From Saccharothrix syringae (GTDB lineage: Bacteria > Actinomycetota > Actinomycetes > Mycobacteriales > Pseudonocardiaceae), in assembly GCF_009498035.1 (NCBI RefSeq), contig NZ_CP034550.1, positions 7,378,001 through 7,442,000 on the forward strand: DNA of 64,000 nt, in the 5' to 3' direction. Below, in pieces: positions 45,626 through 49,421 of this stretch. Below the pieces are notes generated by a model. It was not told where the DNA came from. It worked only from the letters and a program-made list of their open reading frames with translations, and made no database searches. Within the stretch, counting starts at the first letter, position 1, and the number at the start of each line of letters is the position of its first letter. A program made the translations under genes and the position numbers.

Positions 45626-46094
45626 CCAGGGGTGGCGCGACCCGCTCGCGCTGGTGCCGGCACTGGCGTTCGGCGTGGCCGCGGGCCTGCTCACCAGGGA
45701 CCGCCTGGGGTGGTGGGCCGTGCTCGCGGGCGCGGTGACCGGCCTGCTGGTGCTGCTGACGTACGCGCTGGTGCGGTCGCTCGGGGGGCCGCGGGCGCGC
45801 CGGGGCCCGACCGACGTGGAGCGGGCCGGGGTGCTGCTGGCGGAGGCGCGGCGGGCCGGGCGGGACGTACCCGGTTCGGCGCCGGTGATCGCCGCGCTGG
45901 ACCGGCACCTGGTGCTGGTCGCGGTGCCCGCGGACGAGGTGCCGGTGGCCAAGGTGCTCGGCGAGATGGAGGCGACGAGGGACCTGCTGCGCCGGGCCGC
46001 GGCGGGGGACGAGGCGGTGGACGAGGACCTGGCCGTGATGCTGCGCGTGCTGCGGGCGACCCAGCAGGCGGTGGACGGCGACCGGGCCGGGTAG
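45615..46094 (+). CDS. small two-helix membrane protein of the KAP operon
   Basis: 159 residues from ATG 45615, which overlaps the end of the VWA gene by 11 bp. Two membrane helices near the start (LVPALAFGVAAGLL, WAVLAGAVTGLLVLLTYALV), then a soluble helical part with LVLVAVPADEVPVAKVLGEM. No family recognised. Overlap with the upstream gene shows it belongs to the same operon. Confidence 0.7.
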   Translation: MSADQGWRDPLALVPALAFGVAAGLLTRDRLGWWAVLAGAVTGLLVLLTYALVRSLGGPRARRGPTDVERAGVLLAEARRAGRDVPGSAPVIAALDRHLVLVAVPADEVPVAKVLGEMEATRDLLRRAAAGDEAVDEDLAVMLRVLRATQQAVDGDRAG

Positions 46095-46132
46095 CCGTTC
46101 CGGGCGGGGTCCGGAGTCCGGCGCGGCTCCGC

Positions 46133-47305
46133 TCAGCCGAGCACGTGCTCGGGCGCGGAGAGGACGGCGGTGACGCGGGGCGCCCTGCCCAGCCGCGTCA
46201 GGGGGAGCGGCCGGTCGGCCAGGCGCGCGGCGACGGCGCCCAGCAGGCGCACCTCCGACGTCGCGGCCACGCACGCGCCGGGGCCGACCGCGAAGGGCAG
46301 GAAGGCGTCGGGGCGGTCCGGCAGGTTCTCCCAGCGCTCGGGGCGGAAGTCGTCCGGGTCCGGCCAGTGGCGCGGGTGCCGGTGCAGGGCGTAGGTCGGG
46401 ACCACGACGTCGTCGCCCCGCAGCACCGACAGCGTGCCGAGGCGGTGGTCGTGCCGCACCGGGCGGCGGTGCTGCCAGGCCGGTGGCCACAGGCGCAGGG
46501 CTTCGAGGGCGACGTGACCGGGGTGGGCGTCCCGCGGGTCGGTCGCGCGGCGGACCGCGATCGGGCCGGTCGGGTGGTGGGCGCAGACCAGCCAGGTCAG
46601 TGCGGCCGCGGAGGCGCCGACGAACGCCGTGACAGCACGCAGGTACATCTCACCGCGCACCGCGGGTCCCGCGGGTCCCGCATCGGACGAGCCGGGCGCG
46701 GGCTCGTCGGCCGGCGCGGCCGGTGGTCCCGCTTCACCGGGACGGGCGGCCGGGCCGGGCGCACCGGCCAGGTCGGGCAGACCGGGCACGGGCTCGTCGG
46801 CCAGCGCGGCGGCGGCCCGCGCGCACAGCCGCTCGAAGGCCCGGTCGTCCGCGCCGCGCCGGGAGCCGGTGACCATGGCGTGGAACACGGTGTCCAGGAA
46901 CTCGTCGACAACAGCGCGCAGCTCGGCGTGGTCGAGCCCCAACGACCGGCCGTGCGCCTCGGCCACCGCGTGCAGGCAGGCGCGGTGCAGGTCGCCGCGA
47001 GCGGCGGCCAGCGACTCGACCGCGAGCTCGGCCGCGCGATCCTCGTCCTCGGCGGCGAGGGCGCGGTGGACCCACCGGTTCCACGCGGTGCACTGGACCG
47101 GTGGCAGCGCCACGCCGCCGGGTCGCCAGAACGCGGGCACGTGGTCGAGCCGCTCGTCACCGTCGACCAGGACCTGCCTGGCCAGCCGCGCGTCGCAGAC
47201 CACGACGCTGCCCGCCAGCGTCCGGAACACCGGCTTGCGCACGCACCGGCGGTGCAGCCGGCGCAGCGCCCGCCAGTCGGCTCGGCGGATCGGACCGAAC
47301 GACAT
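46133..47305 (-). CDS. cytochrome P450, likely peptide-crosslinking
   Basis: 390 residues. Heme ligand Cys345 in FLPFAVGPGACVAAT (normally FGxGxHxC; His is Gly-Ala here), ExxR in ALEALRLWPP and I-helix AVTAFVGASAAALTWL. A Pro/Ala-rich insert replaces part of the F-G region. The start ATG lies 25 bp after the stop of a 30-codon gene whose product ends YTYY. P450s in this setting (CitB of cittilin, BytO of biarylitides, atropopeptide enzymes) form aryl-aryl or aryl-ether links between Tyr/Trp side chains. The same is inferred here; electron-transfer partners are not adjacent. Confidence 0.88.
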   Translation of the reverse strand: MSFGPIRRADWRALRRLHRRCVRKPVFRTLAGSVVVCDARLARQVLVDGDERLDHVPAFWRPGGVALPPVQCTAWNRWVHRALAAEDEDRAAELAVESLAAARGDLHRACLHAVAEAHGRSLGLDHAELRAVVDEFLDTVFHAMVTGSRRGADDRAFERLCARAAAALADEPVPGLPDLAGAPGPAARPGEAGPPAAPADEPAPGSSDAGPAGPAVRGEMYLRAVTAFVGASAAALTWLVCAHHPTGPIAVRRATDPRDAHPGHVALEALRLWPPAWQHRRPVRHDHRLGTLSVLRGDDVVVPTYALHRHPRHWPDPDDFRPERWENLPDRPDAFLPFAVGPGACVAATSEVRLLGAVAARLADRPLPLTRLGRAPRVTAVLSAPEHVLG

Positions 47306-47330
47306 GCGTCGGCAGACCGAACGGCACGCG

Positions 47331-47423
47331 TCAGTAGTAGGTGTAGATCGGCCTCCAGGCCAGTCGCCGGATTCCGCGTTCCACCCCGAGCCGGCGCAGC
47401 AGCGGCCTGATCATCCTCTTCAC
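47331..47423 (-). CDS. cittilin-like RiPP precursor peptide
   Basis: A 30-codon gene directly upstream of the P450 and on its strand. GTG 47423 has GAGGGGG 4 nt upstream; ATG 47414 would shorten it to 27 codons, the length of CitA. The leader is basic (MKRMIRPLLRRLGVERG) and the C-terminus is LAWRPIYTYY. Cittilin is made from a peptide ending YIYY by a P450, so YTYY is the likely crosslinked core here. The small size, absent protease and lone P450 fit that class. Proof needs comparison with relatives and product analysis. Confidence 0.75.
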   Translation of the reverse strand: MKRMIRPLLRRLGVERGIRRLAWRPIYTYY

Positions 47424-47458
47424 TCGTCCCCCTCGATGTTCGGCTGTGCTCACATCCC

Positions 47459-47501
47459 ACTGAACGCGCCTGCGTCCCGGCTGTCAATTACCTCTTGAGG
47501 T
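47459..47501 (-). promoter_or_regulatory. promoter and operator-like palindrome of the RiPP operon
   Basis: On the minus strand TTGACA (47487-47482), 17 bp, then TTCAGT (47464-47459) place the transcript start about 29 nt before GTG 47423. The palindrome ACCTCTTGAGGT (47490-47501) sits just upstream of the -35 box and may bind a regulator. Confidence 0.5.
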
Positions 47502-47617
47502 GATGCGACAGGCAACGCAGAGCAACCATCCACAATGGACAAAGAAACCGGCACCTGTGCCACGACCGTCCACAAAGGACTACAAAGGGAGTGCCGCGGT
47601 CCTCACCCCGCAAGCGG

Positions 47618-49219
47618 TCACGCCCCCTTCTCCTCGATCCTGCGGCGCACCACCTCCACGTAGTCGTCGACCGCGGGTTCGGCGGCCCGGAGGTCGTACG
47701 GCGGTTCGCGCAGCAGGTCCCACGCCCGGCCGTACGCCCCGCCCAGCTCAAGGTCCTCGACCAAGCCGTGGTCGCGGGCCTTCTCCGCGTAGGCGTCGAA
47801 CCGGGCGCGCAGCAGGTCGTAACGGTCCACCAGCCCGTCGAGCACGGCCCGCCACCGCCTGCCCTCGGCCAGCGCGCGGGCGACCTCCCGCTCCGACTCA
47901 CCCACGTACCGCTCCACCCACGCGGTGTCGCCCGCCGCCCACGCCGACCGCAGCCGGTTCACCGCGCCGCGCAGGCGCGTCGCCCGCGCCCCGAGCACCG
48001 GGAGCCCGACGAACCGGGGCACGACGGTCACCTGGTGCTCCTCGATCGCCGCGAGTTCGGCCACCAGGGCGCCCAACGCCCCCAGCCGCACCGGGACGCC
48101 GTCCTCGACCGGTCCACCCGCGCCCGGCTTGGCACGCACCACGTCGACCTGCGACGACTCGCGCCGGAACGCCGCCACCACCCGGATGCCCTCGCGCCGG
48201 GCCAGCGGCACCAGCACCTCCTCGACCAGGCGGTCCGGCTCGGCGGCGTCGTCGACCGCGTCGACCACGACGGTGCCGCCGAAGCGGACCGCACGCCCGA
48301 GCCGTTCGTCCACGCGCCGCCGAACCTCGTCGGCGGTCCGCCCCGACGCGTCGACCGCGAGCACCACGCTGCCGGCGGGCGGGCGGCCGACCTCTCGGGG
48401 CGGGTCCGGCAGGCGGGCGGAGCGCTCGCGGTCGGCGAGGGCGACGACCAGCCGCAACGCCGCCGCCCCGGCCGACCCCCGATCCCCGGTGACCACAGGC
48501 CACAGCGCGCCGGCGCCCACACCCGTCACCCAGTCGAACAGGGCGTTCGCCAACGACACGTCAACGGCATCAGCGCGAGTGGCGGCCAGGCTCTCGTCGA
48601 CCGCGGGCACCCCCTGCACCCACCGGCCCAGCAGCGGCAGGTGGCCCAGCACCGTCTCGACCGGGATCATCCACCCGACCAGGCCGGCGTCGCCGCTGCA
48701 GTGGCCGACGACCACGCCGACGACACAGCCACTGGCCTCGTCGACGACGGCGCCACCGCGGTAACCCGCCACGATCGGTTCGGCCTCGCCGACGCGGTTC
48801 AGCCGAACCCACTCGCCGGCCGAGCCGGCGAGGTGGGCCGGGGTCCACAGGCCGCCGCCCGAGCCGTCCGGGAAGCCGTGGACGCGGACCGCCTGGTGGT
48901 CGCCCAGCGGCATGCGGCGCAGCGGCGCGCCGTGCGCGGCGGGTTCGGGCCGCTCCAGGCGCAGCAGGGCGACGTCGCCGCGTTCCCCCTCGGTCGCCGG
49001 CACCCACGCGCCCTCGACGACCGACGCGGCACCCCGGGCCGCCTCGGGCACGCCGACGAAGTCGACCACCACCCGCGCGTCCGGCCCACCCGCCTCCCCG
49101 ACCACGCGCGCGCAGGTGAGCAGGTGTCGTTCGTCGAGCATCGTGCCGCCGCCGCGGAACCGCCCGGATTCGTCGGACAACCGCACCCGCCAGCGTCGCC
49201 GCTCGCGCTCGAACCCCAT
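47618..49219 (-). CDS. trypsin-fold protein lacking two catalytic residues, C-terminal domain unknown
   Basis: 533 residues from ATG 49219. The first ~190 residues have the trypsin-like fold of VMAP-type actinobacterial proteins: GGGTMLDERHLLTCARVVG and GDVALLRLE, but His is Arg38 (LLTCAR) and the Ser is Arg (VAGYRGGAVV). The Asp site is kept. It is therefore probably a non-catalytic binding version. The rest is helix-rich: LFDWVTGVGAGALWPVVTGD, RRVDERLGRAVRF, and a coiled C-terminal. In related genomes such proteins accompany VMAP-type conflict systems. No partner is directly adjacent here. Confidence 0.65.
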   Translation of the reverse strand: MGFERERRRWRVRLSDESGRFRGGGTMLDERHLLTCARVVGEAGGPDARVVVDFVGVPEAARGAASVVEGAWVPATEGERGDVALLRLERPEPAAHGAPLRRMPLGDHQAVRVHGFPDGSGGGLWTPAHLAGSAGEWVRLNRVGEAEPIVAGYRGGAVVDEASGCVVGVVVGHCSGDAGLVGWMIPVETVLGHLPLLGRWVQGVPAVDESLAATRADAVDVSLANALFDWVTGVGAGALWPVVTGDRGSAGAAALRLVVALADRERSARLPDPPREVGRPPAGSVVLAVDASGRTADEVRRRVDERLGRAVRFGGTVVVDAVDDAAEPDRLVEEVLVPLARREGIRVVAAFRRESSQVDVVRAKPGAGGPVEDGVPVRLGALGALVAELAAIEEHQVTVVPRFVGLPVLGARATRLRGAVNRLRSAWAAGDTAWVERYVGESEREVARALAEGRRWRAVLDGLVDRYDLLRARFDAYAEKARDHGLVEDLELGGAYGRAWDLLREPPYDLRAAEPAVDDYVEVVRRRIEEKGA

Positions 49220-49421
49220 TGGTCGGAGGCTACGCGGACCACCGCGCGGCCCGCTCCGGGTTCGCGCAACGGTCCCGGGCCGGCGCAGTGGTCTCACCCG
49301 ATCGGCGGAACTCGGGGCATTTGCACGATCACAATTCCGGCGAAAAGAAGCGCCGGAGGAATTCGCGCGCAATCCGGCGGAATTCACGCGCAACCCGATC
49401 AGCCGCGCGCGGCCCGACCGG

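Follow-up and report, generated by a model that had tools for sequence, protein, structure and literature searches.

A 30-codon gene and the cytochrome P450 gene that follows it form a conserved two-gene cassette in Saccharothrix syringae, in which the P450 is, on balance, predicted to join aromatic residues in the tail of the encoded peptide. The small gene is almost certainly a RiPP precursor gene, and there is a good probability that the P450 performs aryl crosslinking. The cassette lies in a window of 64,000 nucleotides, the whole stretch of DNA analysed here, which is part of a single contig of 10,929,570 bp. Judged from sequence, it very likely specifies a P450-modified ribosomal peptide. 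It is best described as a P450-modified RiPP variant with a Trp-Pro-Tyr signature.

The precursor gene occupies positions 47331-47423 of the minus strand (30 codons, GTG start, TGA stop; MKRMIRPLLRRLGVERGIRRLAWRPIYTYY). Its translation, with GTG read as the start, is KRMIRPLLRRLGVERGIRRLAWRPIYTYY, and its GC3 is 0.87. Codons 23-30 (47334-47357, minus strand) encode W-R-P-I-Y-T-Y-Y, the conserved aromatic tail and predicted core, as delimited by an alignment of seven actinobacterial peptides and a motif test on 14 peptides. The gap between the precursor stop and the ATG of the P450 gene at 47305 is 25 bp (47306-47330), and no clear Shine-Dalgarno sequence was seen before this ATG on reading the sequence. 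The precursor gene is preceded by GAGGGGGA (47427-47434, minus strand), a Shine-Dalgarno sequence rated good on the same reading. An alternative in-frame GTG lies 10 codons 5' of the annotated start; conservation among the precursors begins at MKR, and an ATG takes that position in loci L046, L047, L048, and L065. Further upstream, a possible promoter was read at 47459-47487 (minus strand), with a perfect TTGACA (47482-47487), a 17-nt spacer, and a weak TTCAGT (47459-47464) that agrees with a -10 element in three of six positions. A promoter consensus scan of 45900-47900 reported no hit, the TTGACA/TTCAGT pair included. Nothing stands out in the palindrome ACCTC-TT-GAGGT (47490-47501), whose arms are 5 bp long. 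The original prediction had described a 30-codon gene with its own Shine-Dalgarno sequence 25 bp before a P450 gene on the same strand, and the sequence bears this out; the -35/-10 pair that it added is the weaker part of the description. Additionally, two 16-nt direct repeats (ACCATCCACAATGGAC), 88% alike and 40 nt apart, are present upstream of the cassette at 47525-47580 and are possible operator sites.

The P450 gene (46133-47305, minus strand) encodes a protein of 390 residues, which was characterized by Pfam, alignment, tree, AlphaFold model, and fold comparison. It matches PF00067 with an E value of 5.9e-16, and its residues Gly230, Glu268, Arg271, and the heme ligand Cys345 are invariant in 22 aligned P450s. 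A Gly/Pro/Ala-rich insert of 33 residues (P450 residues 180-212; 46670-46768, minus strand) is absent from five aligned relatives. The AlphaFold model (pLDDT 83.7, pTM 0.86) predicts a P450 fold, with low confidence in this insert and in residues 331-350 before Cys345, the heme-binding loop. Among the top-ranking Foldseek rows for the protein are structures of P450Blt. At E <= 1e-20, a P450 profile returned 22 proteins including the window's own (7997 candidates scored out of 5.8 billion), and two peptide patterns run on GTDB contigs gave six named loci. Eleven of the 22 clade proteins lie outside the gene-neighbourhood survey, as do Saccharothrix xinjiangensis and two Actinosynnema. In a tree of 46 P450s, the 22 proteins and a second Luteimonas copy (L131) form one clade with support of 100/100. 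The nearest outside group (99/98) consists of the first P450s of eight two-P450 loci together with the P450 of L103 from the same genome as the window, a placement that is less sure, as for all P450s outside the clade, owing to the midpoint root and some long branches.

Relatives of the precursor were found with a profile built from three precursors and run against 390 family genomes at E <= 1e-14. Eight places in seven genomes matched, and among these genomes G001 and G005 had already been found before the search. Seven of the eight places, including the window, directly precede a P450 of the same type; five of the other loci are intact and one is broken. The conserved part of the peptide ends in Y[ST]YY at all seven actinobacterial loci, the one with the broken P450 included. 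A conserved end WRPIYxYY had been predicted; the relatives instead have W[AN]P[VFQ](G)Y[ST]YY. The distance from the peptide stop to the P450 start is only 2-3 nt in L045, L046, L047, L048, and L065, compared with 25 nt in the window, which suggests that translation of peptide and P450 is coupled at those five loci. In Saccharothrix luteola (L044/L003), loss of the stop codon lets the peptide continue in frame into the start of the P450, whose own frame breaks after about 20 codons, a defect attributable to decay or to a sequencing error. In S. carnea, only C-terminal pieces of the P450 remain, and the search for a peptide gave nothing. A single chromosomal site, different from that of the window, is common to Saccharothrix NRRL B-16348, luteola, and carnea. 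A second locus of Goodfellowiella (L050) holds an orphan precursor, MKRLIRPLMRRFGAERGVRRLAWAPFGYETF, without an adjacent P450 match, in a genome that also carries an intact pair (L065). The orphan ends in GYETF, with Trp, Pro, and the first Tyr kept and the last two Tyr lost, and the frame after it still resembles a P450 start (SIHRTGWRGMRQ). This change of tail is of the kind that relaxed selection would leave, with the caution that one case proves little.

From these sequences, the pairing of precursor and P450 is judged not to be due to chance, since the same pair occurs in six further actinobacterial loci and pN/pS ranges from 0 to 0.55 in 21 of 21 precursor pairs. The aromatic end is strongly conserved alongside many synonymous changes. 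Moreover, short ORFs of 15-60 aa on both strands of the 64-kb window have 398 distinct ends, and that of the precursor alone matches Y.YY. Such an end was met once among 2371 short ORFs of other loci, in a true relative, and never among 17056 ORFs from 20 mononucleotide shuffles. The original prediction of a P450-modified RiPP precursor is thus strongly supported by the conserved gene and P450 pairing, the purifying selection, and the 2-3 nt gaps in five relatives. It would have been refuted had the small ORF not been conserved among close relatives, and this check, fixed beforehand, found the ORF conserved.

In Luteimonas, which belongs to another phylum, six loci in five genomes likewise carry a gene for a small basic peptide shortly before a same-clade P450. 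The peptides are MKRVMKQAVRSMARAVGAESRPRKWIWPAYYKI (L070), MKRLLRSALRTASGRQKAVWQFAYLWPTIYFEG (L131), MKRFVRSVLRTGSGRQTAVWTYAYLWPSIYLG (L144), and those of L145, L146, and L147, which are as L144 with K for both T of TAVWT. Their genes stand 68-81 nt before the P450 and are not closely coupled to it. They align poorly with the other peptides except in the motif described below and the MKR start, and none of the six contains YxYY. Luteimonas is not named among the literature matches listed, a search in which subscription papers are mostly not covered, and no claim is made that the cassette is missing from print.

The arrangement W-(x)-P-x-(x)-Y is found in all 13 peptides beside a clade P450 (seven actinobacterial and six from Luteimonas). 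The corresponding pattern W.?P.{1,2}Y, worded after the peptides were seen, matches these 13 and the L050 orphan (n = 14), against a background of 15 in 17056 shuffled ORFs. Among 2371 other ORFs it has three matches, including one relative and one candidate precursor of the P450 locus L081. As the peptides of L145-L147 are identical, the independent Luteimonas evidence for the motif amounts to about four wordings. The Trp-Tyr distance varies from i+3 to i+5, and the natural tails are WRPIYTYY, WNPQYTYY, WAPVGYSYY, WAPVGYTYY, WAPFGYSYY, WPAYYKI, WPSIYLG, and WPTIYFEG. Given that YxYY occurs at seven of seven actinobacterial and none of six Luteimonas loci and the W-(x)-P-x-(x)-Y arrangement at all 13, we conclude from the peptide sequences that YxYY is an actinobacterial trait and that the constant part of the clade is Trp, Pro, and Tyr.

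These tails bear directly on a strict cittilin type of chemistry, in which the P450 would couple only the three tyrosines of YTYY into a bicyclic tetrapeptide with one biaryl and one aryl-ether bond, and Trp23 would belong to the leader. The cittilins of Myxococcus xanthus (CitA/CitB) are alike in having one adjacent P450 and in the YIYY end of CitA, as against YTYY in the window. The window precursor, with its P450 25 bp on, has 30 residues, near the 27 of the cittilin precursor according to an excerpt of PMC8708641. Y[ST]YY is kept throughout the actinobacterial loci, and the loss of the last two Tyr in the P450-less orphan L050 if anything ties the P450 to YxYY. However, YxYY is not kept across relatives of the P450, being missing from every Luteimonas peptide encoded beside a same-clade enzyme; furthermore, Trp and Pro are as invariant as the tyrosines. 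The strict cittilin type is regarded as a tentative alternative, and a confinement of the rings to YTYY appears rather doubtful. The earlier description of the cassette as cittilin-like stands as far as a P450-modified RiPP is concerned, and membership of the cittilins is not established. A ring within YTYY only is no more likely than one that spans Pro25 and includes Trp23 and Tyr27. For Trp23 to be part of a ring at all, the chances are about even; the residue could instead lie in a recognition site.

Other known systems share some of these features. The cittilins differ further from the window family in that Trp-x-Pro is conserved before the tail of the latter. A methyltransferase is said of the myxobacterial clusters only, and no methyltransferase domain was found in 16 Pfam-scanned frames from 40.5 to 53.8 kb of the window, which include the P450 and some of which overlap and need not be genes. 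Biarylitide clusters outside the myxobacteria without a methyltransferase gene are mentioned in the excerpted part of PMC8708641. The hyalucidin A family (NF053510) has precursors of ~30 residues with aromatic ends, and the first of its two P450s falls in the nearest group outside the window's clade; it differs in having two P450s per locus, where the window has one. NF053510 is matched by the precursors of L005 and L004, the two scanned out of the eight two-P450 loci; at E <= 10 it gave no match for the peptides of the window, L045, L065, and L070, and no NCBIfam model matched any of these four family peptides. Loci L004, L005, L006, L008, L009, L010, L012, and L132 each have two P450s with a peptide gene beside or between them (e.g. 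...YRWYLYHHI). Atropopeptides of the tryptorubin type likewise combine a leader and an aromatic core with one defining P450 in a two-gene cluster, but the KSLK-type motif of their precursors, as excerpted from PMC11450843, occurs in none of the 14 peptides of the window family. Biarylitides (BytA/BytO, P450Blt) share the minimal precursor-P450 operon, with a precursor of five residues in the same excerpt of PMC8708641 in contrast to 30 in the window. The broad cyptide superfamily is marked by a small conserved precursor gene with a dedicated P450, which is what the seven actinobacterial and six Luteimonas loci contain.

The surroundings of the cassette were compared between the window's 40-54 kb and 14 other stretches, of which 13 contain a P450 and one the orphan. 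All 13 share with the window P450 frames and overlapping frames only, bar a weak 96-residue match (34-36%) to two Saccharothrix at the edge of the compared stretch, and the orphan stretch (L050) has nothing in common with it. The other loci have a few distant neighbour frames in common among themselves, the best being between one Amycolatopsis and three Saccharothrix (46-47%). Pfam gave a weak match to trypsin for an upstream frame at 47618-49393 and a solute-binding plus VWA match for another frame. PF00067 matched 69 stretches of the genome, with the next P450 matches more than 50 kb away. A motif filter on the loci taken gave 52 P450 frames (two being repeats of one gene and one the window's own) and missed nine loci. 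Outside the window, a second P450-peptide pair is found at L079 (2798-2884, minus strand; G000:C1 near 7014900), with the peptide MKHLRHVAARLLGKTRMGGFYVYWAIAE (GGFYVYWAIAE). It belongs to a broad family of 253 proteins at E <= 1e-30, of which the 120 listed include Saccharopolyspora and Catellatospora citrea, and which occurs in 10 of 386 family genomes at E <= 1e-90; an upstream YxYW peptide (Y[VTF]YW plus a short tail) is present in seven of these 10 loci. A third candidate pair, L081 (616-711, plus strand; G000:C1 near 4680200), has a peptide ending in RYWPFYYDDGM, which holds W-P-x-Y, and a P450 outside the window's clade. At L103 (G000:C1 5131500-5135300), the P450 falls among the hyalucidin-type first P450s, and the 20-codon ORF after it, MAAVLRRVFRTAPARRWNWE, which has a Shine-Dalgarno sequence, is a shorter candidate precursor.

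The presence of L079 in the same genome is relevant to whether the cassette is already known as the syr cluster that makes syrinamides. The syrinamide, shandoamide, and citreamide clusters were reportedly described by Hu et al. in 2023. In the available excerpts of PMC12352619 and PMC12299652, all three are cittilin-type P450 RiPP clusters, and syrinamides are made by the P450 SyrB, which would suit the window. SyrB is also reported to accept SanA, a point against the identity. The window's clade was not seen in Saccharopolyspora or Catellatospora, whereas the L079 family includes both, and the san (shandoamide) and cre (citreamide) clusters could by name stem from such genera, a weak argument. 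The syr cluster may come from S. syringae; the prefix 'syr' may also denote another species. Going by the names, a weak guide, L079 may fit syr, san, and cre better than the window cassette does, and identity of the cassette with syr is considered unlikely.

It is more improbable still that the P450 makes no aryl crosslink and alters the peptide in some other way, such as hydroxylation or a different oxidation. The type of bond is not readable from sequence, and the solved structures found are at most 40% alike to the window P450, over a partial stretch. On the other hand, aromatics at fixed places beside a dedicated P450 resemble the crosslinked P450 RiPPs, and among the NCBIfam P450 models the window protein scores best with the crosslinking ApyO (NF050147, E 7.8e-14), though at 51.2 bits against a 525-bit cut-off. 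This distant score and a peptide without the YLYD end also separate the window from the aminopyruvatides. Finally, a regulatory leader peptide acting on the P450 by translation attenuation, as the position of the ORF just upstream and the tight spacing in actinobacterial loci might suggest, is very improbable in view of the amino-acid-level conservation of the aromatic end amid synonymous change, the persistence of a related peptide without an adjacent P450 at L050, and the lack of any Rfam match in 44-50 kb.

Under the favoured reading, in which the P450 crosslinks the tail of a RiPP precursor, a single transcript probably serves for the translation of both genes. The peptide would bind to the P450 through its basic leader (about residues 1-22), bringing the tail to the heme. 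The enzyme would then oxidise Tyr or Trp to radicals, which couple. The most likely ring would be Trp23-Tyr27 across Pro25, formed by residues common to the whole clade, and in the actinobacterial peptides Tyr29 and Tyr30 may enter an additional coupling. Removal of the leader would then fall to host peptidases, since the pair has no conserved peptidase gene next to it.

The fullest form of the proposal, a RiPP family of Actinomycetota and Luteimonas in which one small P450 closes a Trp-Tyr ring over Pro (W-x-P-x-Y) and in actinobacteria couples two more Tyr, is put forward as a possibility that is rather less likely than not. If true, the predicted product would be a compact polycyclic octapeptide, unlike the cittilins, biarylitides, and atropopeptides. 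The natural tail variants are a ready panel for asking which aromatics the P450 joins, and a YxYY end alone is insufficient for assignment to the cittilins. Cassettes of just a peptide gene and a P450 gene offer an economical route to rigid cyclic peptides, and genes this small easily escape notice.
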